From assembly GCF_002794355.1 (NCBI RefSeq), contig NZ_PGOI01000009.1, positions 310,001 through 374,000 on the forward strand: a stretch of 64,000 bases of DNA, read 5' to 3'. This DNA comes from Pseudorhodobacter sp. MZDSW-24AT. Its GTDB lineage: Bacteria > Pseudomonadota > Alphaproteobacteria > Rhodobacterales > Rhodobacteraceae. The notes under the pieces were generated by a model, which searched no databases, had not been told where the DNA came from, and was given only the letters and a program-made list of their open reading frames with translations. Position numbers and translations under genes: made by a program. Below are positions 1,410 to 22,305 of the stretch, in pieces; the first letter of the stretch is position 1; each line of letters opens with the position of its first letter.

Positions 1410-2816
1410 ATGCCCGTCGGAAACGCCTTTGCCTATGTGATGCTGGCCTTGTGGCCGGTGGTTTCGTGGATCTTCTTCACGAAGCTGCCCCCGGCACGCG
1501 CGCTCATCTGGACCATTCTGGGCGCTTATCTGCTGCTGCCTCCGGTGGTGGCGCTGGACTTCCCCTTGGTGCCGGACATTGACAAATATGCGGTGGCCAA
1601 TCTTGCGGCGCTGGCGGCGGTGCTGTTCTTGTTGCGCGCGCGCTTTGGCCTGTGGCCCGGGTCGCTCTTGGGGCGTGGCCTGATCGTGCTCTATGTGGCG
1701 AGCCCCTTTGCCACCGTGGTGACAAATCCCGATCCGATCTGGTTTCCCCAGCGCGTGCTGCCTGCGCTGCGGCTGTATGACAGTCTGGCCGTGGTGGGAA
1801 ACCAGTTCATCGCGCTGATCCCTTTCTTTCTGGCGCGCCGCTTTCTGAGCGGAGAGGAGGCGATGCGCGCGATGATCGTGGCGCTGATGGTGGCAGGGCT
1901 GATCTATTCCTTGCCGATGCTGCTGGAGGCGCGGATTTCGCCGCAGTTGAACCTGTGGATCTATGGCTTTTTCCAGCATGATTTCAGTCAGGCGATCCGC
2001 TTTGGCGGGTTCAGACCCTTTGTCTTCATGCCGCATGGGCTGTGGGTCGCGTTCTTTGGGATGATGTGCTTCCTTGCCGCCGTGACCTTGCTGCGCGTGG
2101 GACCTGCGGCGGCGCGCCCGCGCTTTTTCATGGTGGCGCTGTATCTGATGGTCGTGCTGCTGTTTTGCCGCAGCGCCGGGCCTTTGGTTTATGCGCTGGC
2201 CTTGGCACCGACCATTCTGCTGTTGCCGCGCCGGGTGCAGGTTCTGATGGCCGGGGCGATGGTGATGTTGGTGATCACCTATCCGCTGCTGCGCGGCCTG
2301 CATCTGGTGCCGGTGGAGGATCTGATGAACCTTGCGCTGAGCCTGAACGCCGAACGCGGCGCCTCGCTGCAATTCCGCATCCTGAACGAGGAATTGCTGT
2401 TGGACCGCGCCGCCGAGCGGCCATGGTTTGGCTGGGGCCTGTATGGGCGCGGGTTGATGCATGACCCGATGACCGGACAGATCAATGTGATCGCCGATGG
2501 CGGCTGGATCATCACCTTGGGCACCTTCGGCTGGGCCGGATATATTGCGGAATTCGGCCTGCTTGCGCTGCCCGTGGTGCTGATGGCGCGCGAGGCGATC
2601 CGCCAGCCTTCGGCGGCGCTGTCGCCGTTTGTCTGTGCGATCACACTTATTCTGGCGGTCAACCTGGTGGATCTGCTGCCCAATGACACGCTGATCCCAT
2701 TCACATGGCTGATGGCGGGGGCGGTGCTGGGCCATGCCGAGGCGCTGCGCGCGACGTGGAAGGCCGCACATCCGCGCAAGGCGGCGCAACTGGCGCCGGG
2801 GAGGACAGTGCTGTGA
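1410..2816 (+). CDS. Polytopic membrane protein, O-antigen polymerase/ligase-like
   Basis: A hydrophobic protein of 468 residues with roughly ten to twelve membrane segments, beginning MPVGNAFAYVMLALW and including ILVVLF-type helices up to TWLMAGAVLGH at the C-terminus. The overall layout, with a large loop before the last helices (around NAERGASLQFRILNEE and the WFGWGLYGRGLMHD stretch), resembles Wzy/WaaL O-antigen polymerase or ligase proteins, which join lipid-linked glycans in the periplasm. I chose ATG 1410 over the open frame from 1272 because the first 46 residues of the longer form are not membrane-like. Its stop overlaps the start of the next gene (GTGA), so it is translationally coupled to a glycosyltransferase. 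The acceptor and donor cannot be read from sequence. The WaaL or Wzy assignment is inference. Confidence 0.7.
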   Translation: MPVGNAFAYVMLALWPVVSWIFFTKLPPARALIWTILGAYLLLPPVVALDFPLVPDIDKYAVANLAALAAVLFLLRARFGLWPGSLLGRGLIVLYVASPFATVVTNPDPIWFPQRVLPALRLYDSLAVVGNQFIALIPFFLARRFLSGEEAMRAMIVALMVAGLIYSLPMLLEARISPQLNLWIYGFFQHDFSQAIRFGGFRPFVFMPHGLWVAFFGMMCFLAAVTLLRVGPAAARPRFFMVALYLMVVLLFCRSAGPLVYALALAPTILLLPRRVQVLMAGAMVMLVITYPLLRGLHLVPVEDLMNLALSLNAERGASLQFRILNEELLLDRAAERPWFGWGLYGRGLMHDPMTGQINVIADGGWIITLGTFGWAGYIAEFGLLALPVVLMAREAIRQPSAALSPFVCAITLILAVNLVDLLPNDTLIPFTWLMAGAVLGHAEALRATWKAAHPRKAAQLAPGRTVL

Positions 2817-4099
2817 CCCGACGGTTGCGTGTTTTGCTGGTGGCCGAGGCCGCGAACCCGGAATGGGTGTCGGTGCCCTTGGTGGGTTGGTCGCTGGCGC
2901 GGGCGCTGGCAGAGGTGGCGGATGTGCATCTGGTGACACAGGTGCGCAACCGCGATGCGTTTCTGCGCGCCGGACTGGTGGAAGGCGAGGCCTTCACCGC
3001 CATTGATTCCGAAGCGCTGGCGCGACCTCTGTGGAAGCTGGGCAGCTTTCTGGCGGGGGGGCGCGGCGGCTGGACCATTCAGCAGGCCGCGCAGACGATC
3101 AGCTATCCGTATTTCGAGCATCTGGTGTGGCGGCGCTTTGGCGCCGAGATCCGCGCGGGGCGTTTTGACGTGGTGCACCGGATCACCCCGCTTTCGCCCG
3201 TCCAGCAAAGCCCGATTGCCGCAAAATGCCGGGCCGCCGGGGTGCCTTTCGTGCTGGGGCCGATCAACGGCGGCGTGCCGTGGCCCAAGGGGTTTGAGGC
3301 CGAGATGAAGCGCGAGCGCGAGTGGCTGTCCAAGGTGCGGGGTTTGTATCGGGCCTTGCCGGGGCGGCAGTCCACCTTGCGCGCCGATGCCATTCTGGCC
3401 GGATCGCGCCAGACCCAGCGCGAGATTCCGGCGCGGCATCAGGAGCGGGTGATCTATCTGCCCGAAAACGCGATTGACCCCGCGCGGTTCAACGCGCGGG
3501 CGGTGCATGGCGGCCCCGGGCCGATGCGGGCCTGTTTCATTGGGCGGCTGGTGCCGTTGAAGGGCGTGGACATGCTGCTGGAGGCGGCGGCGCCCTTGCT
3601 GCGCGACGGGCGGCTGGTGCTGGAGATCGTGGGCGACGGCGATCAGAAGGCCGCTTTGCAGGCGCAGGCGGCGGCCTTTGGCGCGGGGGTCGTGTTCCAT
3701 GGCTGGAAGGCCCATGCCGAGGTGCAGGACATTGCCGCGCGCTGCCAGGTGCTGGCCTTTCCGTCGATCCGCGAATTCGGCGGCGGCGTGGTGCTGGAGG
3801 CGATGGCGCTGGGCCTTGCGCCGATTGTTGTGGATTACGCAGGTCCGGCCGAGCTGGTGACCGAGGCGACCGGATGGAAGGTGCCGATCACGGGCCGCGC
3901 GGGCGTGGTGGCCGGGTTGGCCGCGCGTCTGGCATGGTGCGTGGACCATCCCGAGGCGGTGGCGGCCAAGGGCGCGGCCGCGCGCGCCCGGGTGGAGGCT
4001 GCGTTCACATGGGCGCGCAAGGCCGAACAGGTGCTGTCGGTTTACCGTTGGGTCCTGCAACGCAGCGGTCCCAAGCCCGCGCCTTTCGGACCGGGCTGA
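2813..4099 (+). CDS. Glycosyltransferase family 4
   Basis: A 428-residue GT-B glycosyltransferase of the GT4 type, expected to transfer a sugar from a nucleotide-sugar donor on the cytoplasmic face. The C-terminal half carries the family signatures FIGRLVPLKGVDMLLEA (around residue 240) and, further on, FPSIREFGGGVVLEAMALG, which contains the conserved E-x7-E type donor-binding region, followed by DYAGPAELV. The start is GTG 2813, overlapping the stop of the preceding gene by four bases and preceded by GGGGAGG at a good distance; an upstream open frame from 2705 lies inside the previous gene and is rejected. Sits in the block with the PKS and NRPS genes, suggesting it glycosylates their product or builds an attached glycan; sugar specificity is unknown. 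Confidence 0.9.
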   Translation: MTRRLRVLLVAEAANPEWVSVPLVGWSLARALAEVADVHLVTQVRNRDAFLRAGLVEGEAFTAIDSEALARPLWKLGSFLAGGRGGWTIQQAAQTISYPYFEHLVWRRFGAEIRAGRFDVVHRITPLSPVQQSPIAAKCRAAGVPFVLGPINGGVPWPKGFEAEMKREREWLSKVRGLYRALPGRQSTLRADAILAGSRQTQREIPARHQERVIYLPENAIDPARFNARAVHGGPGPMRACFIGRLVPLKGVDMLLEAAAPLLRDGRLVLEIVGDGDQKAALQAQAAAFGAGVVFHGWKAHAEVQDIAARCQVLAFPSIREFGGGVVLEAMALGLAPIVVDYAGPAELVTEATGWKVPITGRAGVVAGLAARLAWCVDHPEAVAAKGAAARARVEAAFTWARKAEQVLSVYRWVLQRSGPKPAPFGPG

Positions 4100-4175
4100 G
4101 GGAGGGTGGCTCCTTATTTTGGCCAAGTTTGCTATATAGCCGGAACGGCGTTTATGCCTGCCGAGTGGATGTCTG

Positions 4176-7100
4176 ATGCGTGATTCCCTGCCGCCCGTTG
4201 AGCTTTCGGAAACCGATATTGCGATTGTTGGCATGGCGGCGCATCTGCCGGGGGCCGGTGATCTTGACAGCTATTGGGCCAATCTGCGCGGTGGCATTGA
4301 ATCGATCCGGGTGCTGGAGGCCGAGGCCTTGCTGGCGGCAGGGGAATCTCCGGCGCGGATGGCGCGGGGGAATTATGTGCCAGCGGCGGCCGTGCTGGAC
4401 GGGTTCGAGCACTTCGATGCCGAGTTTTTCGGGTTCTCGCCGAAAGAGGCGGCCATTCTGGACCCGCAGCACCGGCAGTTTCTGGAAGTGGCTTGGGAAG
4501 CGCTGGAAAATGCAGGCCACCCGCCCGAACGCTTTGGCGGCCCGATCGGGGTTTGGGCGGGCTGCGGGATGGGGTCGTATTTCTACTTCAACCTGTGCTC
4601 GCACCGGGATCTGGTGGATCAGACGGGGATGTTCCTGCTGCGCCATACCGGGAATGACAAGGATTTTCTGGCCACGCGGGTCAGCCATGTGCTGGACCTG
4701 AAGGGGCCCAGCATCAACGTGCAGACGGCGTGCTCGACATCGCTGGTCGCGGTGCATTACGCGGCGCAGGCGCTGTTGAACGGCGAATGTGACATGGCCT
4801 TGGCGGGCGGGGTGACGATCGAGTTGCCGCATGCGCGCGGGTATCTGTATACCGAAGGCGAGATCCTGTCGCCCGACGGGCATTGCCATGCCTTTGACCA
4901 TCGTGCGCAAGGCACGGTGTTCGGCTCGGGCGCGGGCTGTGTGGTGCTGCGCCGGGCGGTGGATGCGCTGCGCGACGGCGACCATATCTGGGCCATCCTC
5001 AAGGGCTCGGCGGTGAACAATGACGGCGCGGCCAAGGCGGGCTATCTGGCGCCATCGGTCGATGGTCAGGCGCGCTGTGTGGCCGAAGCGCAGGCGGTTG
5101 CCGGGGTCAGCGCGGAGTCGGTCAGCTATGTCGAGTGCCATGGCACGGGAACCTATCTGGGCGATCCGATCGAAGTGGCGGCGCTGACGGCGGCGTTCCG
5201 GGAAACCACCGATGCGGTGGGGTCGTGCCGCATCGGCAGCGTGAAAACCAACATCGGCCATCTCGACACCGCCGCCGGGGTGGCGAGCCTGATCAAGGTG
5301 GCGCTGGCGCTGCACCACCGGGAATTGCCGCCGTCCTTGGGCTATGAGGCGCCCAATCCGGCGATCGACTTCGAGACCTCGCCCTTCCGGGTGAATGACC
5401 GGCTCACCCCCTGGACCGCCGCGCCGCGCCGCGCCGGGGTGAACAGTCTGGGCGTGGGGGGCACCAATGCGCATGCGGTGCTGGAAGAGGCGCCGCCGCG
5501 CGCAGCCCCGGCGCCCAGTGACTGGCCTTTCCAGCCGCTGGTGCTTTCGGCCCGCTCCAAGGCCGCGCTGGATGCCGCCAGCACGCGCCTTGCCCAACAC
5601 CTGCGCGCGCGGCCTGACCAGCCCTTGGCCGATGTCGCCTACACCTTGAAAGAGGGCCGCCGCGCCTTTGACAAACGCCGCGTGCTGGTCGCCGAAAGCC
5701 ACGCCGAGGCCGCCGAGATCCTCGACTCCGCCGATCCCCGCCGGGTCTTCACCCATGACCATCTGGGCGACAGCCCCCCGGTCATCTTCATGTTCCCCGG
5801 CGGCGGCGCGCAATACGCAGGCATGGCGCGCGACCTCTATGAAACCGAACCGGTCTTCGCCGATTGGATGGACCGCGGCCTCGCCGTGCTGGAACCCAAG
5901 CTCGACTACAGCATCCGCGCCCTCTGGCTCCCCGAACCGGGCCAAGAGGCCGCCGCCGACGCCGCGCTGAAACGCCCTTCGGTGCAGCTGCCGCTGATCA
6001 TGATCACCGAATTCGCGTTGGCCAAACTCTTCGAATCCTGGGGTGTTACCCCCAGCGCGCTCGTCGGCCATTCCATGGGCGAAAACACCGCCGCCGCCCT
6101 TGCCGGTGTGCTCAGCTTCGAAGACTGCATCGGCCTCGTCCATCTGCGCGGCACCTTGTTCGACACCATCGCCCCGGGGGGCATGCTCTCGGTGCCGCTC
6201 TCCGAAGAACGCCTGCGCAGCACCCTCGCGCGGCTTGGCTTTTATCTTGGCTCAAATATCCCGGGGGTCCGGGGGCTGGCCCCCGGTCCGACAGAGCCGC
6301 TGGACATTGCCTCGGTGAACGCGCCCGAGCTTTGCGTCGTCTCCGGCCCGGAGGCCGCCCTGTCCAGCCTTGCCGAACAGCTCGCCGCCGAAGGCATCGA
6401 CACCCAGCGCATCGCCATCGACATCGCCGCCCATTCCGCGATGCTGGAACCGATCCTGCAGCGCTTTGGCGATTACCTGCGCGCGATCGCGCTGCATCCG
6501 CCACGCCTGCCCATCTTTTCCAACCGCAGCGGCGCCGAACTCACCGCGGCCGAGGCCACCGATCCCGATTATTGGGTGCACCATCTGCGCGGCACGGTGA
6601 ATTTCCGCGCCTGCATGGAGAGCTTGAGCGCCACGCCGGCGCAGGTCTATCTGGAAATGGGGCCGGGCCGCGCGCTGTCGTCGCTGGCGCAGGCCAATGG
6701 TGTGGCCTCGGGTCAGGTGATCCCGGCCTTGCGCCATCCCGATCAGCGCATCGCCGATGATGCTTGGCATATGGTCACGCTGGCGCGGCTTTGGGCCTGC
6801 GGCGTTGCCATCGACTGGGAGCCGATCTGGGGCGGTGCCGCGCGCTGCCGGGTGCCGCTGCCGGGCTATGCCTTTCAGCGCAAGCCTTATTTCATCGCCC
6901 CCGCCGAGGCGCAGGCCCCGGAGGCCGAGGCCTTGCCTGTGCGGCGTGCCGATCTGGCGGATTGGGGCTGGCGCCCGCAGTGGCGGCCGGTGGCGGCGGG
7001 TGTTGACCCTGATGATCTGGCCGAACGCCCGACGGAAACATGGCTGATCTTTCTGGATGAGACCGGGATATGTGCCGCGCTGGCGGACCGCCTGTCGCGG

Positions 7101-10100
7101 GCCGGGCACCGGGTGGTGCGGGTGCGGGCGGGCGATGCCTTTGCGCGCGAGGCTTCGGGCGGGTATCGGCTGTCGCCCGAGCGCGGGCGCGAAGGCTATG
7201 ATGCCCTGATCCGCGATCTGGTGGCGCGGGGGCTGGTGCCAAGCCGGATCGTGCTGGGCTGGCTGCTCACGGGCAAAGAGACCTTCCGTCCCGGGTCGAG
7301 CTTTCTGCACCGCAACATCGAGCAGGGCTTTTATGCGCTTTTGTTTCTGGGGCAGGCCTTGGCCGAAGAAAACCTGCCGCGCCCGATCCGCATCACGGTG
7401 CTGACCAGCGGCGCGGCGCAGGTGAAGGGCGAGCCTTTGCCCTATCCGGAAAAGGCCATGGTGCTGGGCCCGGCTCGGGTGATCCCGCGCGAGGTGCCGG
7501 GCGTCGAGGTGGGCCTGCTGGATCTGGGGCCCGGCGCCTCGGATGAGGTGGTCTTGGAAGAGGTGCTGGCCGACGCCCCGTCGCTGGCGGCTTGGCGCAA
7601 GGGGCGGCGCTATGAGTCCGGGGTGAAGGCGGTGGCCTTGCCTGCGGCCCAGCTGGACCTGCCGCAGGGCGCGCATGTGCTCATCACCGGGGGCTTTGGC
7701 GGCATCGGTCTGACGGTGGCCGAAGATCTGATCCGCCGTTTTGCGGTGAAGATCACGCTGATCGCGCGGCGTGCCTTGCCCGAGCGCGCGGCTTGGGCGG
7801 CGCTTTTGGCGAAGGCGGGGCCGGACGATCCGCTGGCCCGGCGACTTCTGGCCTTGCAGCGGCTGGAAGCCTTGGGGGGCGAGGTGCATGTGGCACGCGC
7901 CGATGTGGCCAATCTGGAAGAGATGCAGGCGGCGCGCGCGGCGGGCGAGGCGCAGTTTGGCCCGGTTCACGCCGTGATCCATGCGGCGGGCGTGGTGGAT
8001 GACGGGCCTTTGCTGATGAAAACCCCGGCCGAGGTCGAAGAGGTTTTTGCCCCCAAGCTGCATGGCACGCAGGTGCTTGAGCGGCTGTTCCCCGATGGCA
8101 CGATCGCGCTTTTGGTGCTGTTCGCGTCAACCTCGACGGTGACGGGGCCTGCCGGGCAGATCGATTATGTGGCGGCGAATGAATATCTGAACGCCTATGC
8201 CAAGCACCGTTCGGGCGGAAAGACCCGCGTGGTGGCGCTGAACTGGGGGATCTGGCAAGGCGTGGGCATGGCCGCCGAGGCCTTGGCCGACCGCACAGGG
8301 CGGGTGGAAAGCCCGCGTCTGCCGCTGGAGGCGCCGATGCTCGACGAGGCCGGGTTTGACCGCGACGGCCACCGGGTTTTCCATGCGCGCTATGGGCTGG
8401 ACCGCTGGGTTGTGGATCAGCACCGCACCAAGGCGGGTCTCGCCCTGCTCCCCGGCACGGGCTATCTTGAGGTGATGGCCGAGGCTTGGGCCGCGCAGGG
8501 CGAAGGCGATGCTTTTGAAATCCGGGATCTGACCTTTTTCCGCGCGCTGGAGATCGAGGCGCCGCGGGCGGTGCGGGCGCGGCTTACGCGCAGTGACGAA
8601 GGCTATGGGTTCCAGTTGCAGTCGCAGGCGGTGGTGTCGGGGCGCAGCGGTTGGCTGCTTCATGCCTCGGCCCGTTTGCTGCCGCTCGAGACGGCTGGCC
8701 CGCGGCTGGATGTGGCGGGCATCGCCGCGCGGCTGCCTGTGCCCGAGGTGGGGGAGGGGCTTTTCAGCCCGCAGGAGGCGCATCTGGCCTTTGGGCCGCG
8801 GTGGCGGGTGCTCACGTCCCGCGCGCTGGGGGCGGGCGAAGGGCTGGCGCATCTGGCGCTGCCTGCGGCGTTCCGGGCCGAGCCTGATCAGGGCTGGCGG
8901 CTGCATCCGGCGCTTCTGGACCTTGCCACCGGTTGGGCGATGGGCTTGATCGACGGCTATACGCCCGAGGCGTTGTGGGTGCCGGTGTCTTATGCGCGGG
9001 TGCGGGTGTTCCGCCCGCTGCCCGCCCGGATCGTCAGCCATATGCGCAATGCCGGGGCCAATGCGGCCGCGCGCGGCACCGCCAGTTTCGACGTGACGCT
9101 GGCCACGCCCGAGGGCGAGGTCTGTGTCGAGGTGGAGGGCTTCACGATTCACCGGCTGGAGGGTGGGCTGCGCTTGCAAGCGCCCGATCCGCGCAGTCTC
9201 GAGGCGGATGCGGTGCAGCTGCGCGCGGCCTCGCCCGCCGAGGAGCGTTTGCTGCACGCGTTTTCGCAAGGCATCCGCCCCGAGGAAGGGGCCGAGGCCT
9301 TTGGCCGGGCGGTGGCCTTGGGACACAGCCAGATCTTCGTCTCGTCGCTGGATCTGCCCGCCTTGATCCGGGCGACGGCGGTGGAAGAGGCGGCGCGCAG
9401 CGACGGCCCGAGCTTTGAGCGGCCCGATCTTGACAGCGATTATGTGGCGCCGCGCACGGATATCGAGCGCACGCTGGTGGGGTTCTGGCAAGAGCTGCTC
9501 GGGGTGGCCCGTGTGGGGGTGGAGGACAGTTTCTTCGATCTGGGTGGCCACAGCCTGATTGCGGTGCGGCTGTTTGCGATGGTGAAAAAGGCCTATCGGG
9601 TGGATTTCCCGATCTCGGTGCTGTTCGAGGCGCCGACGATCGCCGCCTGTGCCGCGTTGATCGAGGCGCAGATCGGGCCGCAAGAGCGCGCGTCGGGGGA
9701 GGCACCCGCTGTGGCCTCTGGTGCAGGGGCGGCGGTGGCGCCGCGGCGGTTCACCCATCTGGTGCCGATGCACAAGGGCGAGGGCGGGGCCAAGGCGCCG
9801 TTCTTCCTCGTGGCGGGGATGTTTGGCAATGTGCTGAACCTGCGGCATCTGGCGCAGCTGCTGGGCGGGGACCGGCCGTTTTACGGGTTGCAGGCGCGGG
9901 GGCTGTATGGCGACGCGCGGCCGCATGGCGATTTCGTGAGTGCGGCGCGCGACTACATCGCCGAAATGCGTCAGGTGCAGCCCGAGGGGCCCTATCTTTT
10001 GGGCGGGTTCTCGGGGGGTGGCCTGATTGCTTGGGAAATCGCGCGGCAACTGGAGGCCGAAGGCGAGGCGGTGCCGCTGGTGGTGCTTTTGGACACGCCG

Positions 10101-10601
10101 GTGCCGATGCGGCCACAGCTGTCGAAGCTGGACAAGCTGATGATCCGCGCGGCCGAATTGCGGGCCGAGGGGCCGGGGTTCTTCCGGCGCTGGTGGCGCG
10201 AAAAGCAGGCGTGGAAACAGGCGCAAGCGGCGGGCGGCGCAGATGGCGGCGCGGATGAGGGCGCGTTCCACAATGCGGCCATCGAGGCCGCCTTCCGCGC
10301 GGCCTTGCCCCTGTATCAGATGACGCCGCGCCAAGGGACGACGGTGCTGTTCCGTCCGGCGCTGGACAGGCGCTGGCAGGTGACGGGGGGGCGCTGGGTC
10401 AGTGCGGCGCGCGAATTCGTGCTGCATGACAATGACCTTGGCCCCTTTGCCCCGGCGCTGGAGGTGATCGAGGTGCCGGGGGACCATGACAGCATGGTGC
10501 TGGAGCCCAATGTCCGGGTGCTGTCGGCGCGGATGCGGGCGGTGATTGCCGCCGCCGAGGCCCCGGAGCCTACGTCTTGGCTTGCGGCGGCGGCGGAATA
10601 G
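4176..10601 (+). CDS. Type I polyketide synthase, KS-AT-KR-DH-ACP-TE
   Basis: A single-module modular PKS of 2141 residues. Order read from sequence: ketosynthase about 10-435 with Cys186 (TACSTS), His322 (ECHGTGT) and His362 (NIGHLDTAAG); acyltransferase about 535-850 with Ser633 in GHSMGE; a long linker; ketoreductase about 1165-1400 with GGFGGIG at 1172 and the YVAANEYLNAYA active-site stretch; dehydratase about 1405-1690 with His1416 before LLPGTGYLE and Asp1582 in HPALLD; carrier protein with Ser1793 in DLGGHSL; type I thioesterase with Ser1946 in GFSGGG and His2104 in GDHDS. All catalytic residues are present, so it should extend, reduce, dehydrate and release a chain. KR before DH is not the usual order. 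The AT differs in codon use (about 5540-6590) and contains a palindromic repeat in frame (6240-6299). The motif at the usual HAFH/YASH site reads IAAH, so extender choice is uncertain. Confidence 0.95.
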   Translation: MRDSLPPVELSETDIAIVGMAAHLPGAGDLDSYWANLRGGIESIRVLEAEALLAAGESPARMARGNYVPAAAVLDGFEHFDAEFFGFSPKEAAILDPQHRQFLEVAWEALENAGHPPERFGGPIGVWAGCGMGSYFYFNLCSHRDLVDQTGMFLLRHTGNDKDFLATRVSHVLDLKGPSINVQTACSTSLVAVHYAAQALLNGECDMALAGGVTIELPHARGYLYTEGEILSPDGHCHAFDHRAQGTVFGSGAGCVVLRRAVDALRDGDHIWAILKGSAVNNDGAAKAGYLAPSVDGQARCVAEAQAVAGVSAESVSYVECHGTGTYLGDPIEVAALTAAFRETTDAVGSCRIGSVKTNIGHLDTAAGVASLIKVALALHHRELPPSLGYEAPNPAIDFETSPFRVNDRLTPWTAAPRRAGVNSLGVGGTNAHAVLEEAPPRAAPAPSDWPFQPLVLSARSKAALDAASTRLAQHLRARPDQPLADVAYTLKEGRRAFDKRRVLVAESHAEAAEILDSADPRRVFTHDHLGDSPPVIFMFPGGGAQYAGMARDLYETEPVFADWMDRGLAVLEPKLDYSIRALWLPEPGQEAAADAALKRPSVQLPLIMITEFALAKLFESWGVTPSALVGHSMGENTAAALAGVLSFEDCIGLVHLRGTLFDTIAPGGMLSVPLSEERLRSTLARLGFYLGSNIPGVRGLAPGPTEPLDIASVNAPELCVVSGPEAALSSLAEQLAAEGIDTQRIAIDIAAHSAMLEPILQRFGDYLRAIALHPPRLPIFSNRSGAELTAAEATDPDYWVHHLRGTVNFRACMESLSATPAQVYLEMGPGRALSSLAQANGVASGQVIPALRHPDQRIADDAWHMVTLARLWACGVAIDWEPIWGGAARCRVPLPGYAFQRKPYFIAPAEAQAPEAEALPVRRADLADWGWRPQWRPVAAGVDPDDLAERPTETWLIFLDETGICAALADRLSRAGHRVVRVRAGDAFAREASGGYRLSPERGREGYDALIRDLVARGLVPSRIVLGWLLTGKETFRPGSSFLHRNIEQGFYALLFLGQALAEENLPRPIRITVLTSGAAQVKGEPLPYPEKAMVLGPARVIPREVPGVEVGLLDLGPGASDEVVLEEVLADAPSLAAWRKGRRYESGVKAVALPAAQLDLPQGAHVLITGGFGGIGLTVAEDLIRRFAVKITLIARRALPERAAWAALLAKAGPDDPLARRLLALQRLEALGGEVHVARADVANLEEMQAARAAGEAQFGPVHAVIHAAGVVDDGPLLMKTPAEVEEVFAPKLHGTQVLERLFPDGTIALLVLFASTSTVTGPAGQIDYVAANEYLNAYAKHRSGGKTRVVALNWGIWQGVGMAAEALADRTGRVESPRLPLEAPMLDEAGFDRDGHRVFHARYGLDRWVVDQHRTKAGLALLPGTGYLEVMAEAWAAQGEGDAFEIRDLTFFRALEIEAPRAVRARLTRSDEGYGFQLQSQAVVSGRSGWLLHASARLLPLETAGPRLDVAGIAARLPVPEVGEGLFSPQEAHLAFGPRWRVLTSRALGAGEGLAHLALPAAFRAEPDQGWRLHPALLDLATGWAMGLIDGYTPEALWVPVSYARVRVFRPLPARIVSHMRNAGANAAARGTASFDVTLATPEGEVCVEVEGFTIHRLEGGLRLQAPDPRSLEADAVQLRAASPAEERLLHAFSQGIRPEEGAEAFGRAVALGHSQIFVSSLDLPALIRATAVEEAARSDGPSFERPDLDSDYVAPRTDIERTLVGFWQELLGVARVGVEDSFFDLGGHSLIAVRLFAMVKKAYRVDFPISVLFEAPTIAACAALIEAQIGPQERASGEAPAVASGAGAAVAPRRFTHLVPMHKGEGGAKAPFFLVAGMFGNVLNLRHLAQLLGGDRPFYGLQARGLYGDARPHGDFVSAARDYIAEMRQVQPEGPYLLGGFSGGGLIAWEIARQLEAEGEAVPLVVLLDTPVPMRPQLSKLDKLMIRAAELRAEGPGFFRRWWREKQAWKQAQAAGGADGGADEGAFHNAAIEAAFRAALPLYQMTPRQGTTVLFRPALDRRWQVTGGRWVSAAREFVLHDNDLGPFAPALEVIEVPGDHDSMVLEPNVRVLSARMRAVIAAAEAPEPTSWLAAAAE
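6240..6299. repeat. Palindromic intergenic-type repeat inside the PKS AT domain
   Basis: Within the AT coding sequence the DNA reads CAAATATCCCGGGGG followed by the hairpin CCGGGGGC-TG-GCCCCCGG (6269-6286). Read on the minus strand this is hairpin, then CCCCCGGGATATTTGA, the same layout as the intergenic copies at 33215-33256 and 41485-41565. It is in frame and encodes about 20 residues (689-708) between the ML-V-L-EE-L strand and the LDIASVNAPELC segment, where typical AT domains have only a short loop. Confidence 0.75.
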
Positions 10602-10603
10602 CC

Positions 10604-11608
10604 ATGGCGCGGGTGCTGACGGTGATCCTGAACTGGCGGACGGCGCAGATGACCCTGCGCGCGGCCGAAGCCGCTTTGCTGGCCATGCGCGGCATCGAGG
10701 GCGCGGTGGTGATCGTGGACAATGACTCGGGCGATGGCAGTTTCGAGGAGATGTCGGAGCAAGCGCGCGCGCGCGGATGGGACAGCGGGCCGCATCAGCT
10801 GCGGGTGCTGCAATCGGGGCGCAATGGTGGCTTTGGCGCGGGCAACAACTTTGGCATCCGCGCCGGGCTGCCGGATGGCAGCGCGCCCGATTACGTCTAT
10901 CTGCTGAATTCAGACGCTTTCCCCGCGCCGGATGCGATTGCGGCGCTGCTTGCGCATCTGGAGGCGCATCCCGCCACTGGCTTTGCGGGGAGCCATATTC
11001 ACGGTGAGGATGGGGCGCCGCATCACACCGCCTTTCGCTTTCCCAGCATTGCCGGAGAGTTTGAGCAGGCCGCGCGCTTTGGCCCGATTTCGCGCTTGCT
11101 GCGGCGGGCGATTGTGGCGCCGCCTTTGCCACAGGCGACGGGCCGGGTGGATTGGCTGGCCGGGGCCAGTCTGATGATGCGCGCCCGCGTGCTGGACCAG
11201 ATCGGCCTGTTTGACGAGACGTTCTTTTTGTATTTCGAGGAAACCGAATTGTGCCTGCGGGCGGCGCGCGCGGGCTGGCCCACCGATTACGTGGTGGAAA
11301 GCCGCGTGGCGCATATCGGATCGGTTTCGACCGGGATGAAGGGCTGGCAGCGGGTGCCGCGCTTCTGGCTGGATTCGCGGCTGTATTACTATGCCAAGTG
11401 CCATGGCCGTGCCTATGCACTGGGGGCGACGGTGGCCCATGTGGCAGGGGGGCTGATCTGGCGGGCGCGGGCGTTGATCCAGCGCAAGGCCTTTATCGAT
11501 CCGGCGCATTACCTTGGCGATATGTCGGCCCATGCGGCGGCTTGGGCGCTGCGCGGGTTTCGACCCGTGGCAAAGAAAGAAACCGCTGCGGCGGTGAGGA
11601 GCGTGTGA
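10604..11608 (+). CDS. Glycosyltransferase family 2
   Basis: A 334-residue GT-A fold glycosyltransferase of the GT2 (rhamnosyltransferase-like) type. Visible motifs are VTVILNWRTA at the N-terminus, VIVDNDSGDGS (nucleotide-binding Asp residues), GGFGAGNNFGIRAG, the DxD-equivalent YLLNSDAFP, GASLMMRARVLDQIGLFDETFFLYFEE and a C-terminal region with hydrophobic character. Start ATG 10604 lies two bases after the PKS stop; the upstream in-frame codons from 10577 lie in the PKS gene. The stop overlaps the NRPS start as TGATG, so expression is coupled to both megasynthase genes. A second sugar or a non-glycan acceptor in the same product is the simplest reading. Confidence 0.9.
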   Translation: MARVLTVILNWRTAQMTLRAAEAALLAMRGIEGAVVIVDNDSGDGSFEEMSEQARARGWDSGPHQLRVLQSGRNGGFGAGNNFGIRAGLPDGSAPDYVYLLNSDAFPAPDAIAALLAHLEAHPATGFAGSHIHGEDGAPHHTAFRFPSIAGEFEQAARFGPISRLLRRAIVAPPLPQATGRVDWLAGASLMMRARVLDQIGLFDETFFLYFEETELCLRAARAGWPTDYVVESRVAHIGSVSTGMKGWQRVPRFWLDSRLYYYAKCHGRAYALGATVAHVAGGLIWRARALIQRKAFIDPAHYLGDMSAHAAAWALRGFRPVAKKETAAAVRSV

Positions 11609-14600
11609 TGGCGTTGAGCGCAATTCTGATCGGCAATGAAAGCCTGACACGGGCCTGCGGCGCGGCTTGGCTTGCGCGCGGACATCGGCTGGTGGCGGTG
11701 GTCACGCGGGAGGCATCGGTGCGCGATTGGGCGCTGGGCGCGGGGCTGCGGGTCGAGGCGCCCGGCGCGGGGCTGGAGCAGCGACTGGCCGGGCTGACCT
11801 GCGACTGGCTGCTTTCGGTGGCCAATCTGTCGCTGGTGCCTGCGGCGGTGCGGGCCTTTGCCGCGCGCGGGGCGGTGAATTTTCACGACGGGCCCTTGCC
11901 GCGCCATGCCGGGCTGAATGCGCCGGTCTGGGCGCTTTTGGCCGGAGAGCGCCAGCACGGGATCACATGGCATCTGATGACGGATGGTGTGGACACGGGC
12001 GACATTCTGGAGCAGCGGCTGTTTGACGTGGCGCCGGGCGAGACGGCGCTTTCGCTCAACACCCGGTGCTTTGAGGCCGGGCTGGAAAGCTTTCCGGCGC
12101 TGATGGATCAGATGGAGCGCGGGTTGCGCCCGGTGCCGCAGGATTTTGCCGGGCGCGTGGTGCATGCGCGGGCAGATCGGCCCGCGGCTTTTGGACGGCT
12201 GGATTTCACGGCTTCGGCCGAGGCGGTGGCGCGGATGGTCCGCGCGCTGGACCATGGGCGCTATTGGAACCCGCTGACCACGGCCAAGATCGCCGGATCT
12301 TTTGGCGTGCTGAACGTGGGGGCCGCCGAGGTGGCAGAGGGCACGGGCCTGCCGGGAGCGGTGCTGTCTTCGGGGCCTGAGGGGGTTGTGGTGGGCTGTG
12401 GCACGGGGGCGGTGCGGTTGCACCGTCTGACCTGTCAGACGCTGGGGCTGCCGGTGTCGCCCGAGCGGGTGCGGGATGTGGCCTTGCTGGAGGATGGCGC
12501 GGCGCTGACGGCGGCGCTGGCGGCGCTGGTCCCGCATGAGGCCGCGGTGCGCAAGCGGCTTGCGGCGCTGGCGCCGTTGCCCGTGGCGGGCACAGGTGAG
12601 GGCGCGGGCTGGCTTCGGGTGCCGGTCGAGGCCGGGGCCGAGCGGCTGGCGGTGGCCTTGGCGCAGGTCGCGGGGCAGGGCAGCGGGGATCTGGCGCTGT
12701 CGGTGGCGCCGGGGCTGGAGGGGTATTCCAGCGGCTGGGTGCCGGCGCGGGTGGAGGTGGGTGGCACCGTGGCGGCGGCGGTCGCGGCGCTCCGGGCCGA
12801 AGGGGCCCCGGGCTTTGCGCTGGATTTGCGGACGCGCGATGCCCGGCTGGCGGGGATGCAGGTGCCTCCCGTGGGCCTGTCGCGCCATGGCGGGCCGGTG
12901 CCGGGGACGGTTGTCACGCTGTGTGACGGGGCGCTGCTGGCGGACCGCGCCCGGATCTCGGAGGCCGAGGCGCGCGCGCTTGCGGCGCGGCTGGCCTTTG
13001 TGGCGGCGGCGGCGGGTGACGAGGTGGCGGTGTCGGATCTGCCGATGCTGACCGAGGACGAACGGCGGGCGGTGCTGGAGGCGGCGAACCAGACGCTGGC
13101 CCCGCGCACGGAGCTGTGCGTGCATCAGGCCTTTGAGGCGCAGGTCGCGCGGACGCCCGATGCGCCTGCGGTGAGTTTCGAGGCGGTGACGCTGAGTTAT
13201 GCCGCGCTGAACGCGCGGGCGAACCGGGTGGCGCAGGTGCTGCGCGGCTTGGGCGTGGGGCCGGGGGTTCTGGTGGGGCTGCACATCCGGCGCAGTCTGG
13301 ACATGCTGGTGGGCGCCTTGGCCATTCAAAAGGCGGGCGGGGCCTATGTGCCGATGGACCCGGCCTATCCGGCGGATCGCACCGCGCTTTATATCGAGGA
13401 TTCGGGCTGTCCGGTGATCGTGACGACCCATGATCTGGCGGCGGCCTTGCCGGCGCGCGCGGTGGCCTTGTGTCTGGACACCGATGGGCGGATCGCGGCG
13501 GCGTCGGAGGCCAATGTTGAAAGCGGCGTGGGGCCGGGGGATCTGGCCTATCTGATCTATACATCGGGGTCCACCGGGCGGCCCAAGGGGGTGATGGTCG
13601 AGCACCGCAATGTGGCGAATTTCTTCACCGGGATGGATCAGCGCCTTGGCACCGCGCCGGGGGTGTGGCTGGCGGTCACCTCGCTGTCTTTCGACATTTC
13701 GGTGCTGGAGCTGTTCTGGACGCTGGCGCGCGGGTTCAAGGTGGTGATCTCGTCGGATGAGAACCGGGCGCTGGTGTCTTCGGGGCGGATCGCGAGTGCG
13801 GGGAGGATGGATTTCTCGCTGTATTACTGGGGCAATGACGATGGCGCGGGGCCCAAGAAATACGAGCTGCTGCTGGAGGGCGCCAAGTTTGCCGACAGCC
13901 ATGGCTTTGTGGCGGTGTGGACGCCCGAGCGGCATTTCCATGCCTTTGGCGGGCCATACCCGAACCCTGCGGTGACGGGGGCGGCGGTGGCGGCGGTAAC
14001 GCGCAACATCGGGGTGCGGGCCGGGTCTTGCGTGGTGCCCTTGCACCATCCGGCGCGGATTGCCGAGGAATGGGCGGTGATCGACAATCTGACGGGCGGG
14101 CGCGCCGGGATTGCGATTGCCAGCGGTTGGCAGCCCGATGATTTCGTGCTGCGCCCGGAAAACACGCCGCCGAAGAACAAGGCCGCGATGTTTGCCGCCG
14201 CCGATCAGGTGCGGCGGCTGTGGCGCGGCGAGGGGGTGGATTTTCCCAAGGCGGACGGGTCGATGTTCACCGTTGTCAGCCAGCCGCGCCCGGTGTCGGC
14301 AGAGCTGCCGCTGTGGGTGACGACTGCCGGCAACCCCGAGACATGGCGCGAGGCCGGCGAGCTGGGGGCCAATGTGCTGACCCATCTTCTGGGCCAGTCG
14401 ATTGACGAGGTGGCGGGCAAGATCAAGCTGTATCGCGAGGCGCGGGCCAAGGCCGGGCATGACCCCGAGGCAGGGGTGGTGACCTTGATGCTGCACTCTT
14501 ACGTGGGGCGCGACCGGGCACAGGTGCGGCGCGTGGCCGAAGGCCCGATGAAGGCCTATCTGGCCGCCGCTGTGGGCTTGGTCAAGCAATACGCCTGGGC

Positions 14601-16116
14601 CTTTCCGGCCTTCAAGAAGCCCGAAGGCGTGACCAATCCGATGGACATTGACCTGCGCAGTCTGAGCGCCGAAGAAAATGACGCCATTCTGGATTTCGCG
14701 TTTCAGCGCTATTTCGAGGACTCGGGCCTGTTTGGCACGGTCGAGGATGCGCTGGCGCGGGTCGAGCAGCTCAAACGCATCGGCGTGGGCGAGGTGGCCT
14801 GTCTGATCGATTATGGCATCGCCCCCGAGACGGTGATGGAGGGGCTTTATCCGCTGGCCGAGGTGGTGCGGCGCGCCAATGCGGGCGGCGGGGTGGAGGC
14901 GGATGATTTCTCGATCGCGGCGCAACTGATCCGGCACAAGGTGACGCATCTGCAATGCACGCCGTCGATGGCGCGGATGATCGCGATGAATGAAGAGTCG
15001 CGCACGGCCTTGGCGGGGGTGCGCATGGTGATGGTGGGCGGCGAGGCGCTGCCGGGGGCCTTGGTGCAAGACCTGCGGGCGGCCACATCGGCGCGCATCC
15101 TGAACATGTATGGGCCGACGGAAACCACGATCTGGTCTTCGGTGGAAGAGGTGGGGGTGCCAGAGGCGGTGTCGAACATCGGCACGCCGCTGGCCAATCA
15201 GCAGATGTATGTGCTGGACGCCCGTGGCGCGCCCGTGCCGGTGGGCACCCCCGGCGAGCTGTGGATTGGCGGCGACGGTGTGACGCGCGGCTATTGGCAG
15301 CGACCGGATCTAACCGCCGAGCGCTTCCGTCCCGACCCGTTCGTGACGCCGGATCGCGCCTGCCCTTGGGGCGCGCGGATCTATGGCACCGGCGATCTGG
15401 TGCGGCGGCGCGCCGATGGCAAGATCGATTTTCTGGGCCGCGCCGATCATCAGGTGAAGCTGCGCGGCTATCGGATCGAGCTGGGGGAGATCGAGGCCGC
15501 GCTGGAGGCGCAGCCGGGGGTGCATCAGGCGGTGGTTCTGGCGCGCGAGGACAGCCCGGGCGATGTGCGGCTGGTGGGCTATGTCACCGGGCCTGCGTCC
15601 GAGGCGGCGTTGCGCGCGGCGCTGGCAGAGCGGCTGCCCGAGCATATGGTGCCCGCGCAGATCGTGAGGCTGGAGGCCTTTCCGCTGACTCCCAACCGCA
15701 AGGTGGACCGCAAGGCGCTGCCTGCGCCCGGCGCGCGGGCGACCGAGGCGGTGTTCGTGGCCCCGACCTCCGACATCGAGGCGCAGATCGCGGCGGTCTG
15801 GGCGCGGGTGCTGGGGGTGCCCAAGGTGGGCGCCAAGGACAATTTCTTTGCGCTGGGCGGGCATTCGTTGCTGGCGGTGCAGGCGCACCGCGAAATCCGG
15901 GCGGCGCTGGGCGCGGCCAAGCTGTCGATCACCGACATTTTCCGCTTTCCCACCCTGTCGGCCTTGGCCGCGCATCTGGATGACGGGCCAAAGCCCGTGG
16001 CGGCGGCGACCGCGGCGGCAAAGTCTGCCGGGCTTGCCACGCAGGCCGAGGCGCGGGCCGATGCCATGGCGCGACGGCGCGCCATGCGGGCGGGGCGGGC
16101 AGGCGTGGATGCCTGA
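11608..16116 (+). CDS. NRPS: formyltransferase - adenylation with embedded luciferase-like monooxygenase - PCP
   Basis: A 1502-residue, single-module peptide synthetase. Residues 1-210 are a methionyl-tRNA-formyltransferase-type domain with the catalytic triad Asn91, His93 and Asp129, spaced exactly as in E. coli Fmt (108, 110, 146); residues to about 300 look like the Fmt C-terminal domain. About 300-490 resembles the end of a condensation domain but has no HHxxxDG. The adenylation domain shows A2 (KAGGAYVPMDP), A3 (YTSGSTGRPKG from 651), A4 (FDIS, Asp696), then A5 (GPTE at 1169), A6, A7 (YGTGDL), A8 and A10 (NRKVDRK). Between A4 and A5, about 730-1090, lies a bacterial-luciferase-like FMN monooxygenase of the MupA-type. 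PCP Ser1420 is in GGHSL. Hand-aligned pocket residues are D-I-L-Q-M-G-M-I-W-K, a glycine-type code. No release domain. Starts at ATG 11608 with GAGGAG upstream. Confidence 0.93.
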   Translation: MALSAILIGNESLTRACGAAWLARGHRLVAVVTREASVRDWALGAGLRVEAPGAGLEQRLAGLTCDWLLSVANLSLVPAAVRAFAARGAVNFHDGPLPRHAGLNAPVWALLAGERQHGITWHLMTDGVDTGDILEQRLFDVAPGETALSLNTRCFEAGLESFPALMDQMERGLRPVPQDFAGRVVHARADRPAAFGRLDFTASAEAVARMVRALDHGRYWNPLTTAKIAGSFGVLNVGAAEVAEGTGLPGAVLSSGPEGVVVGCGTGAVRLHRLTCQTLGLPVSPERVRDVALLEDGAALTAALAALVPHEAAVRKRLAALAPLPVAGTGEGAGWLRVPVEAGAERLAVALAQVAGQGSGDLALSVAPGLEGYSSGWVPARVEVGGTVAAAVAALRAEGAPGFALDLRTRDARLAGMQVPPVGLSRHGGPVPGTVVTLCDGALLADRARISEAEARALAARLAFVAAAAGDEVAVSDLPMLTEDERRAVLEAANQTLAPRTELCVHQAFEAQVARTPDAPAVSFEAVTLSYAALNARANRVAQVLRGLGVGPGVLVGLHIRRSLDMLVGALAIQKAGGAYVPMDPAYPADRTALYIEDSGCPVIVTTHDLAAALPARAVALCLDTDGRIAAASEANVESGVGPGDLAYLIYTSGSTGRPKGVMVEHRNVANFFTGMDQRLGTAPGVWLAVTSLSFDISVLELFWTLARGFKVVISSDENRALVSSGRIASAGRMDFSLYYWGNDDGAGPKKYELLLEGAKFADSHGFVAVWTPERHFHAFGGPYPNPAVTGAAVAAVTRNIGVRAGSCVVPLHHPARIAEEWAVIDNLTGGRAGIAIASGWQPDDFVLRPENTPPKNKAAMFAAADQVRRLWRGEGVDFPKADGSMFTVVSQPRPVSAELPLWVTTAGNPETWREAGELGANVLTHLLGQSIDEVAGKIKLYREARAKAGHDPEAGVVTLMLHSYVGRDRAQVRRVAEGPMKAYLAAAVGLVKQYAWAFPAFKKPEGVTNPMDIDLRSLSAEENDAILDFAFQRYFEDSGLFGTVEDALARVEQLKRIGVGEVACLIDYGIAPETVMEGLYPLAEVVRRANAGGGVEADDFSIAAQLIRHKVTHLQCTPSMARMIAMNEESRTALAGVRMVMVGGEALPGALVQDLRAATSARILNMYGPTETTIWSSVEEVGVPEAVSNIGTPLANQQMYVLDARGAPVPVGTPGELWIGGDGVTRGYWQRPDLTAERFRPDPFVTPDRACPWGARIYGTGDLVRRRADGKIDFLGRADHQVKLRGYRIELGEIEAALEAQPGVHQAVVLAREDSPGDVRLVGYVTGPASEAALRAALAERLPEHMVPAQIVRLEAFPLTPNRKVDRKALPAPGARATEAVFVAPTSDIEAQIAAVWARVLGVPKVGAKDNFFALGGHSLLAVQAHREIRAALGAAKLSITDIFRFPTLSALAAHLDDGPKPVAAATAAAKSAGLATQAEARADAMARRRAMRAGRAGVDA

Positions 16117-16738
16117 GGCCGCCTTGCTTGGCGCGCTGCGGGGGCTTGCACCCGAGGGGGCGGGCCTTGGCTGGGCTGATCCGCGCGCGGACCATGCCCT
16201 GATGCCGGGCGAGGCGGTGCCGGGGGCGATCCTGTCGCGGCAGCGGGAGTTTGCAGCGGGCCGCGCGGCGGCGCGCGCGGCGCTGGCGGCGTTTGGCGTT
16301 CCGGCGCAGGCGCTGCCGATGGGGGCCGACCGCGCGCCGGTCTGGCCTGCTGGTGTGGTTGGGTCCATCACGCATACGGCGGGGGCCTGTCTGGCGGTGG
16401 CCCTGCCAAGCGCGCGCTGCCGGGGGATCGGGCTGGATCTGGAAGAGGACCACCCGCTGGACCCGGATCTGTGGGAGATGGTGCTGCGCCCGGAAGAGCG
16501 GGCGGGCATGACGGGCGCGCAGGCCAAGGCGGTGTTCTGCGCCAAGGAGGCCGCCTATAAGGCGCAATACAGCGTCAGCCGCACGCTTTATGGCTTTGAC
16601 GGGATGCGGGTGAACTGGCGCGGCGCCGCGTTTGACGCCGTGTTCACACAGGCGGTGCCGCCTTTTGACGCGGGCGCGCAGGTTGAGGGACAGGTGGTGC
16701 GGGTGGCGGGGCATCTGCTGGCGCTGGCCCGGCTGTGA
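16109..16738 (+). CDS. 4'-phosphopantetheinyl transferase, EntD/Sfp type
   Basis: A 209-residue enzyme that moves the phosphopantetheine arm of CoA onto a serine of carrier proteins, here surely the ACP of the PKS and the PCP of the NRPS. Signatures are VGSITHTAG (CoA-binding, as in EntD), GIGLDLEED (Mg-binding Asp/Glu) and FCAKEAAYKAQY (the W/F-x-x-KE-A-x-x-K motif). The gene starts at ATG 16109, overlapping the NRPS stop by eight bases, so it is the last member of the translationally coupled block. A dedicated transferase next to the megasynthases supports the idea that both are active. Confidence 0.93.
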   Translation: MPEAALLGALRGLAPEGAGLGWADPRADHALMPGEAVPGAILSRQREFAAGRAAARAALAAFGVPAQALPMGADRAPVWPAGVVGSITHTAGACLAVALPSARCRGIGLDLEEDHPLDPDLWEMVLRPEERAGMTGAQAKAVFCAKEAAYKAQYSVSRTLYGFDGMRVNWRGAAFDAVFTQAVPPFDAGAQVEGQVVRVAGHLLALARL

Positions 16739-21062: not shown

Positions 21063-22278
21063 GCGGTTCGCGCTGCCAGTCGGGCGCGTAATCGCAAAAG
21101 GTGCAGCCGCTGAAGACGGCCAAGCGGTCAAGCTCGCGCGCTAGGCCTGACAGGCGGGCCTTGGTCAGCCTAAGGCCGGGTTCGGGCCAGAAGGCGCGGA
21201 TGCGCAAGGTGGTGCTGGCACGGTCGGCGCGGGCATCAAGGCGGCCGATCAATCGCGTGCCTTCCAGCACCGGGAAGACGTAATAGCCGTATTGGCGCTT
21301 GGCCTCGGGGACGAAGACCTCGATCCGGTAGTGAAAGCCGAACAGACGCTCGATCCGGGCGCGATCGCGCAAGGCGGGGTCGAAGGGCGACAGGATGCGC
21401 GGCCCGGAGGGCGGCGGCGTCAGCGCGCCGAGGCGGGCGGCCAGATCGGGGCGGGCGAGGGCGGGGCGGGGGCTGCCGTCGGCCTGTTCGACGGTCAGGC
21501 GGATCAGGCGTCCGGCGGCAAGCTCGGCGCGCGCCCAATCGGCGGCGGCGGGCTTGTCGATGGCGTGCCAGTAGCGGGCGATTTCGGCGTCATCGGCAAA
21601 GCCAAGGTTGGCAAGGGCCGAGGAACAGGCCCAGTCGATGTGCTGTTCGGGCGTGATTTCTGCCGCGAGCAGGGCAGGGGGAATGACGTTTTCCGTCAGG
21701 TCATAGACCTTGCGAAAGGCGTCGCGGCGGGTGACCGAGATCTGGCCCGTGCGCCAGAGCCATTCCAGCGCGGTTTTCGACGGGTGCCAATCCCACCAGC
21801 CGCCCTTGCTGCGCGGCTCGTCCTTGCCGACATCGCTGCTGCTGACGGGGCCATGACGGGCGATGTGGTTCAGGATGGTGTCGAACTGCTGGGTGTAGCC
21901 GTCGCGGAACCAGCGCTGCCAATTGCTGTGGAGCCGCGCGGCATCGCGGGCAAAGCGGTGCTTCCACTGCGGGAAAAGGGCGACGGGGAGGATGGAGGCA
22001 TCATGCGTCCAATGCTCGAACAGGGCGCGGTTCTGTTCCAGCAGGGGTTTGAGCGCGGGGGGGCGGTAGCTGTGACGGCGTGCCCACAGGATCATGTGAT
22101 GCGCGCGTTCGACCGAGGCGATGCTGTCGACCTGCACAAAGCCGATGCGGTCGATCAGGGCGGCCAGCGCCGGGCCTTTGGCGGGGCCGCTGCGCGGCTC
22201 GGCCAAGGCGTGGTGGTGCAGGAAAAGGTGGCGCGCGGTGGCGTTTGGCAGGTGCATGGCGCATTGCAACTGCGCCAT
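21046..22278 (-). CDS. YcaQ-like winged-helix DNA glycosylase family protein
   Basis: A 410-residue protein of the YcaQ/AlkZ group (HTH_42 winged-helix proteins), some members of which unhook interstrand DNA crosslinks. Seen: the N-terminal [22 protein letters not shown] (the QxD-type active-site region), [31 protein letters not shown] (winged helix), [20 protein letters not shown] and a C-terminal [14 protein letters not shown] 22278 is used; an internal ATG at 22257 is possible. It sits 27 bases after the desaturase gene and overlaps uvrC tail to tail, so two DNA repair genes converge here. Crosslink repair as its function is inferred from family. Confidence 0.85.
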
Positions 22279-22305
22279 GCGGAAAAGGTCAAGGCCTTTG
22301 CCGGA

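Follow-up and report, generated by a model that had tools for sequence, protein, structure and literature searches.

What do a polyketide synthase (PKS) and a nonribosomal peptide synthetase (NRPS) make when their genes lie in one run with a polymerase-like membrane protein and two glycosyltransferases? This question is raised by six genes in a 64,000-nucleotide stretch of Pseudorhodobacter sp. MZDSW-24AT (contig NZ_PGOI01000009.1, positions 310,001 to 374,000; hereafter the window). We consider it reasonably probable, from domain content, conserved active sites, neighbourhood and co-occurrence, that the cassette PKS-GT2-NRPS-PPTase serves a Wzx/Wzy-type exopolysaccharide (EPS) system by building a short acyl group that decorates the polymer. 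The orphan, antibiotic-style PKS and NRPS line of many Rhodobacteraceae appears to belong to a surface-polysaccharide system, in which its probable product is an unusual acyl group put on the polymer. The link of the cassette to polysaccharide is well supported; the identity of the product and its transfer to the polysaccharide are what we infer from sequence.

The open reading frames (ORFs) of the window were assigned to protein families by Pfam and NCBIfam model searches with curated cut-offs. All six lie on the + strand between 1410 and 16738 by ORF coordinates and Pfam, as the first-pass annotation of this DNA had stated, and its naming of GT4, PKS, GT2, NRPS and PPTase genes was in each case borne out by Pfam:

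1410..2816, + strand: OAL, membrane protein of the O-antigen ligase/polymerase (WaaL/Wzy) fold, probable EPS polymerase (AlphaFold/Foldseek; relatives)
2813..4099, + strand: GT4 glycosyltransferase, related to the exopolysaccharide protein EpsH (Pfam PF00534, 2e-23)
4100..4175, + strand: 76-base gap at the GT4/PKS joint, seam between the OAL-GT4 and PKS-GT2-NRPS-PPTase blocks (sequence; blocks separable in relatives)
4176..10601, + strand: type I PKS, one module, KS-AT-KR-DH-ACP-TE (Pfam; catalytic residues conserved in the alignment)
10604..11608, + strand: GT2 glycosyltransferase (PF13641 1.2e-12, PF00535 3.5e-11; Asn102 and Asp104 in 84/84)
11608..16116, + strand: NRPS initiation module with formyltransferase (FT), condensation remnant, glycine-type adenylation (A) domain split by a luciferase-like monooxygenase (LLM or MOx), and PCP (Pfam, NCBIfam, alignment, model, profile)
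16109..16738, + strand: 4'-phosphopantetheinyl transferase, PptT/EntD-like (PPTase; PF17837 4.7e-24, PF01648 8.9e-8)

Overlaps had been claimed for four of the joints, and here the sequence gives three overlaps, one 2-base gap and one 76-base gap. Apart from the last, these are a GTGA overlap at 2813-2816 between OAL and GT4, a gap of 2 bases (10602-10603) between PKS and GT2, a TGATG with a 1-base overlap at 11608 between GT2 and NRPS, and an overlap of 8 bases (16109-16116) between NRPS and PPTase.

We investigated how widely the genes occur and how firmly they hold together. In a family sample of 295 Rhodobacteraceae genomes, about one per genus, with presence thresholds of 1e-250 for the NRPS, 1e-280 for the PKS, 1e-40 for OAL and 1e-90 for GT4, the NRPS was present in 103 genomes and OAL homologs in 112, and the core cassette is found in about a third of the genera sampled. 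A class-wide draw of 385 genomes gave the NRPS in 7 (E up to 1e-200), of which 5 were from the same family, the window's genome included. Twenty plasmid records were listed for the NRPS; 19 (H1-H19) recur among the 40 listed for the PKS, and the one that does not, H20, is from Nostoc. Contiguity was scored on the best 80 of 389 GT2 relatives, in 70 of which the sequence reaches 3 kb or more to either side of GT2: the PKS was directly upstream and the NRPS directly downstream in 67 of them (exceptions L070, L073 and L077), and a PPTase match came next after the NRPS in 53 of the 66 loci with enough sequence. The PKS-GT2-NRPS arrangement is not due to chance. The same six-gene order, looked for in other Rhodobacteraceae, recurs in some of them: the full order is contiguous in four Pseudotabrizicola loci (L009-L012), is kept in the metagenome-assembled genome locus L045 up to the contig end, inside the NRPS, and OAL-GT4-PKS are contiguous in genome G124; the core PKS-GT2-NRPS-PPTase is widespread.

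The genome counts, taken with kinship ignored, showed that the NRPS and PKS occurred together in 101 of the 295 genomes, the NRPS alone in 2, the PKS alone in 3 and neither in 189. The corresponding figures were 98 both, 5 NRPS alone, 14 OAL alone and 178 neither for NRPS and OAL; 46, 57 (NRPS alone), 5 (GT4 alone) and 187 for NRPS and GT4; and 50, 62 (OAL alone), 1 (GT4 alone) and 182 for OAL and GT4. Two of the 14 OAL genomes without the NRPS (G085 and G097) do have a PKS match. Of the 98 genomes with both NRPS and OAL, 72 had the two on one contig and no more than 50 kb from each other, and 6 had them on one contig at a distance of 52-420 kb; in the other 20 they were on separate contigs, some of which may be explained by contig breaks. 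OAL and GT4 were at most 3 kb apart in 41 of the 50 genomes with both. Since OAL and GT4 stay together while NRPS and OAL separate in relatives, we place the seam between two blocks at the 76-base gap, and because NRPS and OAL co-occur even when far apart, the association of the blocks is more than linkage. The reading of the six genes as one indivisible operon, made in the first-pass annotation, was rejected on these counts and distances: the blocks separate at the very joint that it had named beforehand, with OAL present without the NRPS in 14/112 genomes and GT4 in 5/51.

The neighbourhood of the cassette in relatives was then compared with controls. Twenty relatives were hand-picked from the better-scoring NRPS genomes and 20 kb were taken on each side (2 of the 40 stretches were shorter); of 20 intended control stretches, 17 existed and were used. 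Upstream, a flippase was found in 13/20 relatives against 0/17 controls, a sugar transferase in 11/20 against 2/17, a WecB/TagA homolog in 12/20 against 1/17 and an OAL homolog in 15/20 against 1/17; one control, L147, happens to contain the OAL-GT4-WecB genes that are displaced in its genome, and the control counts are higher on that account. Of 13 database stretches, taken from the 20 NRPS matches listed, 10 also had EPS genes next to the cassette. The ten (L089, L090, L091, L092, L093, L095, L160, L161, L163 and L164) include Aminobacter, Shinella, Rhizobium, Neorhizobium and Deinococcus, and the Hyphomicrobiales and Deinococcus neighbourhoods are similar. In genome G135, GT2, WecB, Wzz-like, kinase-like and EpsE-like genes lie directly upstream of the OAL gene. 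This EPS neighbourhood and the co-occurrence of NRPS and OAL support the earlier proposal of a product that serves to modify a glycan of the cell surface.

In the genome of the window itself, contig C24 carries WecG, GT2, kinase-like, Wzz, sugar transferase and EpsE-like genes at 352-359 kb, and contig C1 a Wzx flippase at 139654-140514 and Poly_export genes at 190778 and 325343. All kinds of Wzx/Wzy component exist in this genome, scattered over contigs or far apart; they may form one Wzx/Wzy pathway. A second NRPS (C-A-T-TE) was observed directly after Wzx, at C1 ~139522-144863 (L170:18522-19904 and L171:3-3863), with a homolog of ~870 bits in the EPS locus of Paracoccus sp. Arc7-R13 (L093:724-4650). 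L093 gave the only strong homolog in a search of 20 flank pairs, 17 control stretches and 12 plasmid stretches, and the second NRPS, considered as part of the same assembly line, was kept as an observation.

Several results weigh against a role of the cassette in EPS synthesis. The marker seeds of the flank test were drawn from cassette neighbourhoods on plasmids, so that the test leans towards such homologs. The downstream flanks were poorer, with a flippase in 1/20, a sugar transferase in 1/20, WecB/TagA in 6/20 and OAL in 3/20; seeds for the exporter Wza matched 0/20 upstream and 1/20 downstream stretches, and Wzc-like and annotated-OAL seeds gave no match in the 40 flank stretches, so that these flanks do not amount to a complete EPS locus. 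Aliiroseovarius L094 and Nostoc L096 have no clear EPS genes in the stretches analysed, and Methylobacterium L162 is equivocal. Inside the window the possible EPS partners are OAL, GT4 and GT2 only, the other candidates being those on contigs C24 and C1. OAL is missing from 5/103 NRPS genomes and the NRPS from 14/112 OAL genomes, 57/103 NRPS genomes have no GT4 at the threshold used, and the co-occurrence counts ignore shared ancestry. Finally, the TE may simply hydrolyse its chain.

The polymerase assignment was examined at the level of structure. OAL gave no Pfam or NCBIfam match, and no Pfam family even at E up to 1; PF04932 Wzy_C does not match it and falls in the same genome on another locus, on contig C20. 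The AlphaFold model of OAL (pLDDT 85.6, with residues 179-209 below 50) has as best PDB match in Foldseek the O-antigen ligase WaaL, 7tpg (E 2.6e-4, probability 1.00, TM 0.48/0.54, rmsd 8.3), followed by the peptidoglycan polymerase complexes 6pl5 and 8p1u at E 0.04-0.05. The Wzy/WaaL-like label given earlier stands for the predicted fold, where the TM-score is moderate, and finds no match among Pfam and NCBIfam models. GT4 scores 480.4 bits with the EpsH model NF041879, under the cut-off of 800, and is a relative of EpsH rather than a member.

The NRPS proved richer than had been described, with a formyltransferase and an embedded luciferase-like monooxygenase. Its domains are as follows:

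11608..12537, + strand: formyltransferase (FT) with Fmt/ArnA-like C-terminal part (PF00551, PF02911)
12562..13107, + strand: condensation-domain C-terminal remnant and C-A linker (profile match to McyB and Txo2)
13132..13767, + strand: adenylation (A) domain, N-terminal part (PF00501; code residues D, I, L in 79/79)
13813..14865, + strand: luciferase-like monooxygenase (MOx/LLM) inserted in the A domain (TIGR04020, PF00296)
14902..15720, + strand: A domain, C-terminal part (TIGR01733, PF00501, PF13193; Lys1365 in 79/79)
15784..15978, + strand: peptidyl carrier protein (PCP; PF00550; Ser1420 in 79/79)

Active sites were read from alignments of 79 NRPS, 75 PKS, 84 GT2 and 62 PPTase rows, which take in the window sequence and some plasmid loci, with short or weak ORFs dropped. 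The FT triad N91/H93/D129 is kept in 77, 78 and 77 of the 79 rows, respectively. The AlphaFold model of NRPS residues 1-508 (pLDDT 94.0) has as best Foldseek matches the methionyl-tRNA formyltransferase Fmt (5uai, E 1.6e-25) and ArnA (1z7e, E 4.3e-24). In Deinococcus actinosclerus the FT is a separate frame (L095:17770-18696) just before an A-MOx-T NRPS and a PKS, on one strand. Between FT and A the Pfam search found no match and no condensation domain; the last 60 positions of a ~180-residue profile of this interval match condensation-domain ends (McyB 2e-8, Txo2 1.8e-4), and HHxxxD[GH] is present in just 1 of the 79 homologs. We read the interval as a condensation remnant because of this end-only match and the missing motif, and a complete condensation domain was ruled out by the three observations together. 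With an FT bearing the N-H-D triad ahead of A, and no complete condensation domain, the NRPS has the layout of an FT-led initiation module of the LgrA type.

The MOx scores 477.9 bits with the MupA/Atu3671 model TIGR04020, above the curated cut-off of 244.45, and lies at residues 736-1086, between the A parts at residues 509-720 and 1099-1371, that is, within the A domain. The A code reads D-I-L-Q-x-G-M-I-W when its positions are placed by motif rather than against an A domain of known structure; D, I, L, Q, G, M and W are invariant (79/79), the second I is kept in 78/79 and x, taken as position 299, is variable. We take this code to resemble that for glycine, and on that assumption the formyl-glycine unit proposed earlier agrees with both the FT domain and the conservation of the code. 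The C-terminal tail of the NRPS (window ~16025-16113), of the RADAR-DAMARRRAMRAGR type, is alike in 13 relatives and is possibly a docking peptide for the PKS.

The PKS is made up of the following domains:

4212..5654, + strand: ketosynthase (KS; PF00109/PF02801/PF16197; Cys186, His322 and His362 in 75/75)
5784..6695, + strand: acyltransferase (AT; PF00698, end from the fabD match; GHS motif in 74/75)
7674..8258, + strand: ketoreductase (KR; PF08659; Tyr1331 in 74/75, Asn1335 in 75/75)
8355..9164, + strand: dehydratase (DH), after KR (PF21089, PF14765; His1416 and Asp1582 in 75/75)
9471..9662, + strand: acyl carrier protein (ACP; PF00550; Ser1793 in 74/75)
9804..10505, end approximate, + strand: terminal thioesterase (TE; PF00975 from residue 1877)

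The DH activity is uncertain, the position after the catalytic Asp, which we take to be normally Gln or His, being Gly in 74/75. The PKS has no separate enoylreductase domain, since the sole family so named, PF13561, falls on the KR. The triad of the TE is kept (Ser1946 73/75, Asp1973 73/75 and His2104 74/75), and the TE could possibly act as an acyl transferase to a sugar. The PPTase scores under the cut-offs of the NCBIfam PptT and EntD models and keeps D110, E112, K146, E147 and K151 in 62/62.

From this anatomy an order of action can be proposed. The NRPS would act before the PKS because the FT is at the start of the line, the TE at its end, and there is no complete condensation domain; in Deinococcus L095, Methylobacterium L162 and Aliiroseovarius L094 the two genes share a strand, with the NRPS gene directly 5' of the PKS gene. 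After charging of both carrier proteins by the PPTase, the NRPS would load glycine, formylate it and oxidise it through the embedded MOx, and may pass on a glyoxylate-type, formamido or hydroxylated glycine unit. The KS would accept this starter, one malonyl-type unit would be added, and KR, perhaps with DH, would process the extended chain, so that one extension would give a C4 acyl unit, formamido or, if the C-N bond is cleaved, 4-oxo. The TE would release this unit or transfer it onto a sugar of a lipid-linked repeat built by GT2, GT4 and other transferases, which Wzx would flip and OAL polymerise. We propose a sugar of the EPS repeat as the target, since EPS genes and the WaaL/Wzy-fold protein accompany the cassette. 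In a more far-reaching form, which we regard as possible rather than probable, several lineages (Rhodobacterales, Hyphomicrobiales, Deinococcus) would build the NRPS-PKS line into the EPS machinery and the TE would load a formamido- or oxo-acyl group, from formylated, oxidised glycine and malonyl, directly onto each lipid-linked repeat; every repeat of the polymer would then carry a residue made by the assembly line.

The single domains have known counterparts. The initiation module of the linear gramicidin synthase LgrA is FT-A-PCP. LgrA likewise has an FT at the start of its module and is the best PDB match to the present NRPS, which differs from it in the Fmt/ArnA-like extended FT, the condensation remnant, the MOx insertion and the glycine-type code. 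The mycobacterial Pks13 also ends in a TE, which transfers its chain to trehalose; its domain order and substrates, as we understand them, are different. According to excerpts of one paper, a MOx within glycine A domains of myxothiazol-type pathways alpha-hydroxylates glycine, whereupon the amine is lost and a carrier-bound glyoxylate is left (PMC11342130). The A-MOx modules of myxothiazol and melithiazol and the MOx of corallorazine-like clusters have, in the same excerpts, the MOx in the same position within a glycine-type A domain, a likeness of layout, whereas the present module is FT-led, seems to initiate and stands in a polysaccharide context.

Similar clusters are already on record. 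The excerpts of a survey of Roseibaca and related genera report NRPS-like/T1PKS hybrids with an unknown product in 18 of 37 species, and give for Roseibaca domitiana an NRPS at 350,790-355,316 and a T1PKS at 356,309-362,641 (PMC10584327). The sizes and the 992-base gap fit the present NRPS, PKS and GT2, so that the survey cluster is probably the same cassette, a judgement made on size and spacing and for this species only. The hybrid of R. domitiana is there related to enzymes of the argyrin (antitumour) pathway, with a possible antitumour product, and the excerpts do not mention polysaccharide (PMC10584327). A hybrid cluster on a plasmid of Paracoccus marcusii CP157 is likewise reported in excerpts of PMC8273931, and it matches our plasmid record H11 by size and host. 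Both surveys, as far as these excerpts go, regard what is apparently this cluster as a cryptic pathway to a bioactive compound (PMC10584327, PMC8273931). Searches of openly licensed PMC papers, judged for the most part by their listings, gave no paper tying the cassette to polysaccharide. The cassette is thus not unseen, since genome surveys already report a hybrid that fits it, and it is the reading as an EPS component that was not found in the literature searched; the view of the layout as peculiar and undescribed had to be given up, the core being so frequent in the family. An EPS role, if true, would explain why the cluster matches no known product, and substituents of a new class would be expected on polysaccharides of marine and soil bacteria.

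Among the alternatives the one that survives best, which we hold to be unlikely, is a secondary metabolite (antibiotic, siderophore or signal) that is set free and may be glycosylated, with polysaccharide genes as neighbours by chance or through shared regulation. PKS-NRPS hybrids, to our knowledge, usually give free products, and hydrolysis by the TE would suit one; a type I secretion pair lies near the cassette in Shinella L092 and a TolC gene in Aminobacter L091, and in Nostoc L096 a related NRPS stands among PKS genes without EPS genes. The Roseibaca survey, in its excerpts, lists the cluster as a candidate for a bioactive product (PMC10584327). Such a metabolite does not account for the upstream enrichment of flippase, sugar transferase and WecB, nor for a Wzy-like protein that remains associated even when unlinked, and in seven EPS-type plasmid stretches, the only ones searched and with an incomplete gene table, no TonB receptor was annotated near the cassette.

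More doubtful still is a lipid or lipid-like product of the PKS and NRPS that would serve the polysaccharide as anchor or carrier, an idea that we extrapolate from the capsule genes wcbR and rkpA. These PKS genes, in the excerpted account, sit in clusters for the synthesis and export of capsular polysaccharide, and WcbR/RkpA of Burkholderia and rhizobia resemble the present case as type I PKS within a polysaccharide locus, a likeness of setting (PMC3908369). They differ in that an FT-A(Gly)-MOx NRPS partner is not mentioned for them in those excerpts (PMC3908369). The present PKS may be used iteratively; its lack of a separate enoylreductase and the probable feed from a glycine module agree better with an acyl group that is short and polar than with a long chain. 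Very improbable, lastly, is an NRPS-PKS product put on protein or lipopolysaccharide with OAL as a ligase, for which speak the predicted fold nearest to WaaL, a ligase, and the xrtD exosortase genes nearby in R. conchae and Aliiroseovarius, whereas the WaaL fold does not tell ligases from Wzy polymerases and the genes for flippase, chain-length protein and sugar transferase agree with the making of a polymer.

In Aliiroseovarius sp. M344 (L094:17974-31743) a 9.2-kb NRPS/PKS gene comes after the NRPS relative, and nos genes and a gene for an xrtD exosortase lie next to them. A scan for promoter-like and terminator-like sites was uninformative, with 3 promoter-like sites where shuffled sequence gave 1.5 on average and 17 terminator-like sites where it gave 12.8. 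ARAGORN gave a tRNA-Cys at 22231-22326, unreported by Rfam and overlapping the minus-strand ORF 21046-22278, which is probably spurious. The six genes are flanked on the left by what we take, from its translation, to be pnp on the minus strand, and on the right by presumed sppA-like, SDR and uvrC genes, named in the same way. Homologs of the right flank lie 3' of the cassette in Pseudotabrizicola L009-L012 and, in part, in L033 and L041.

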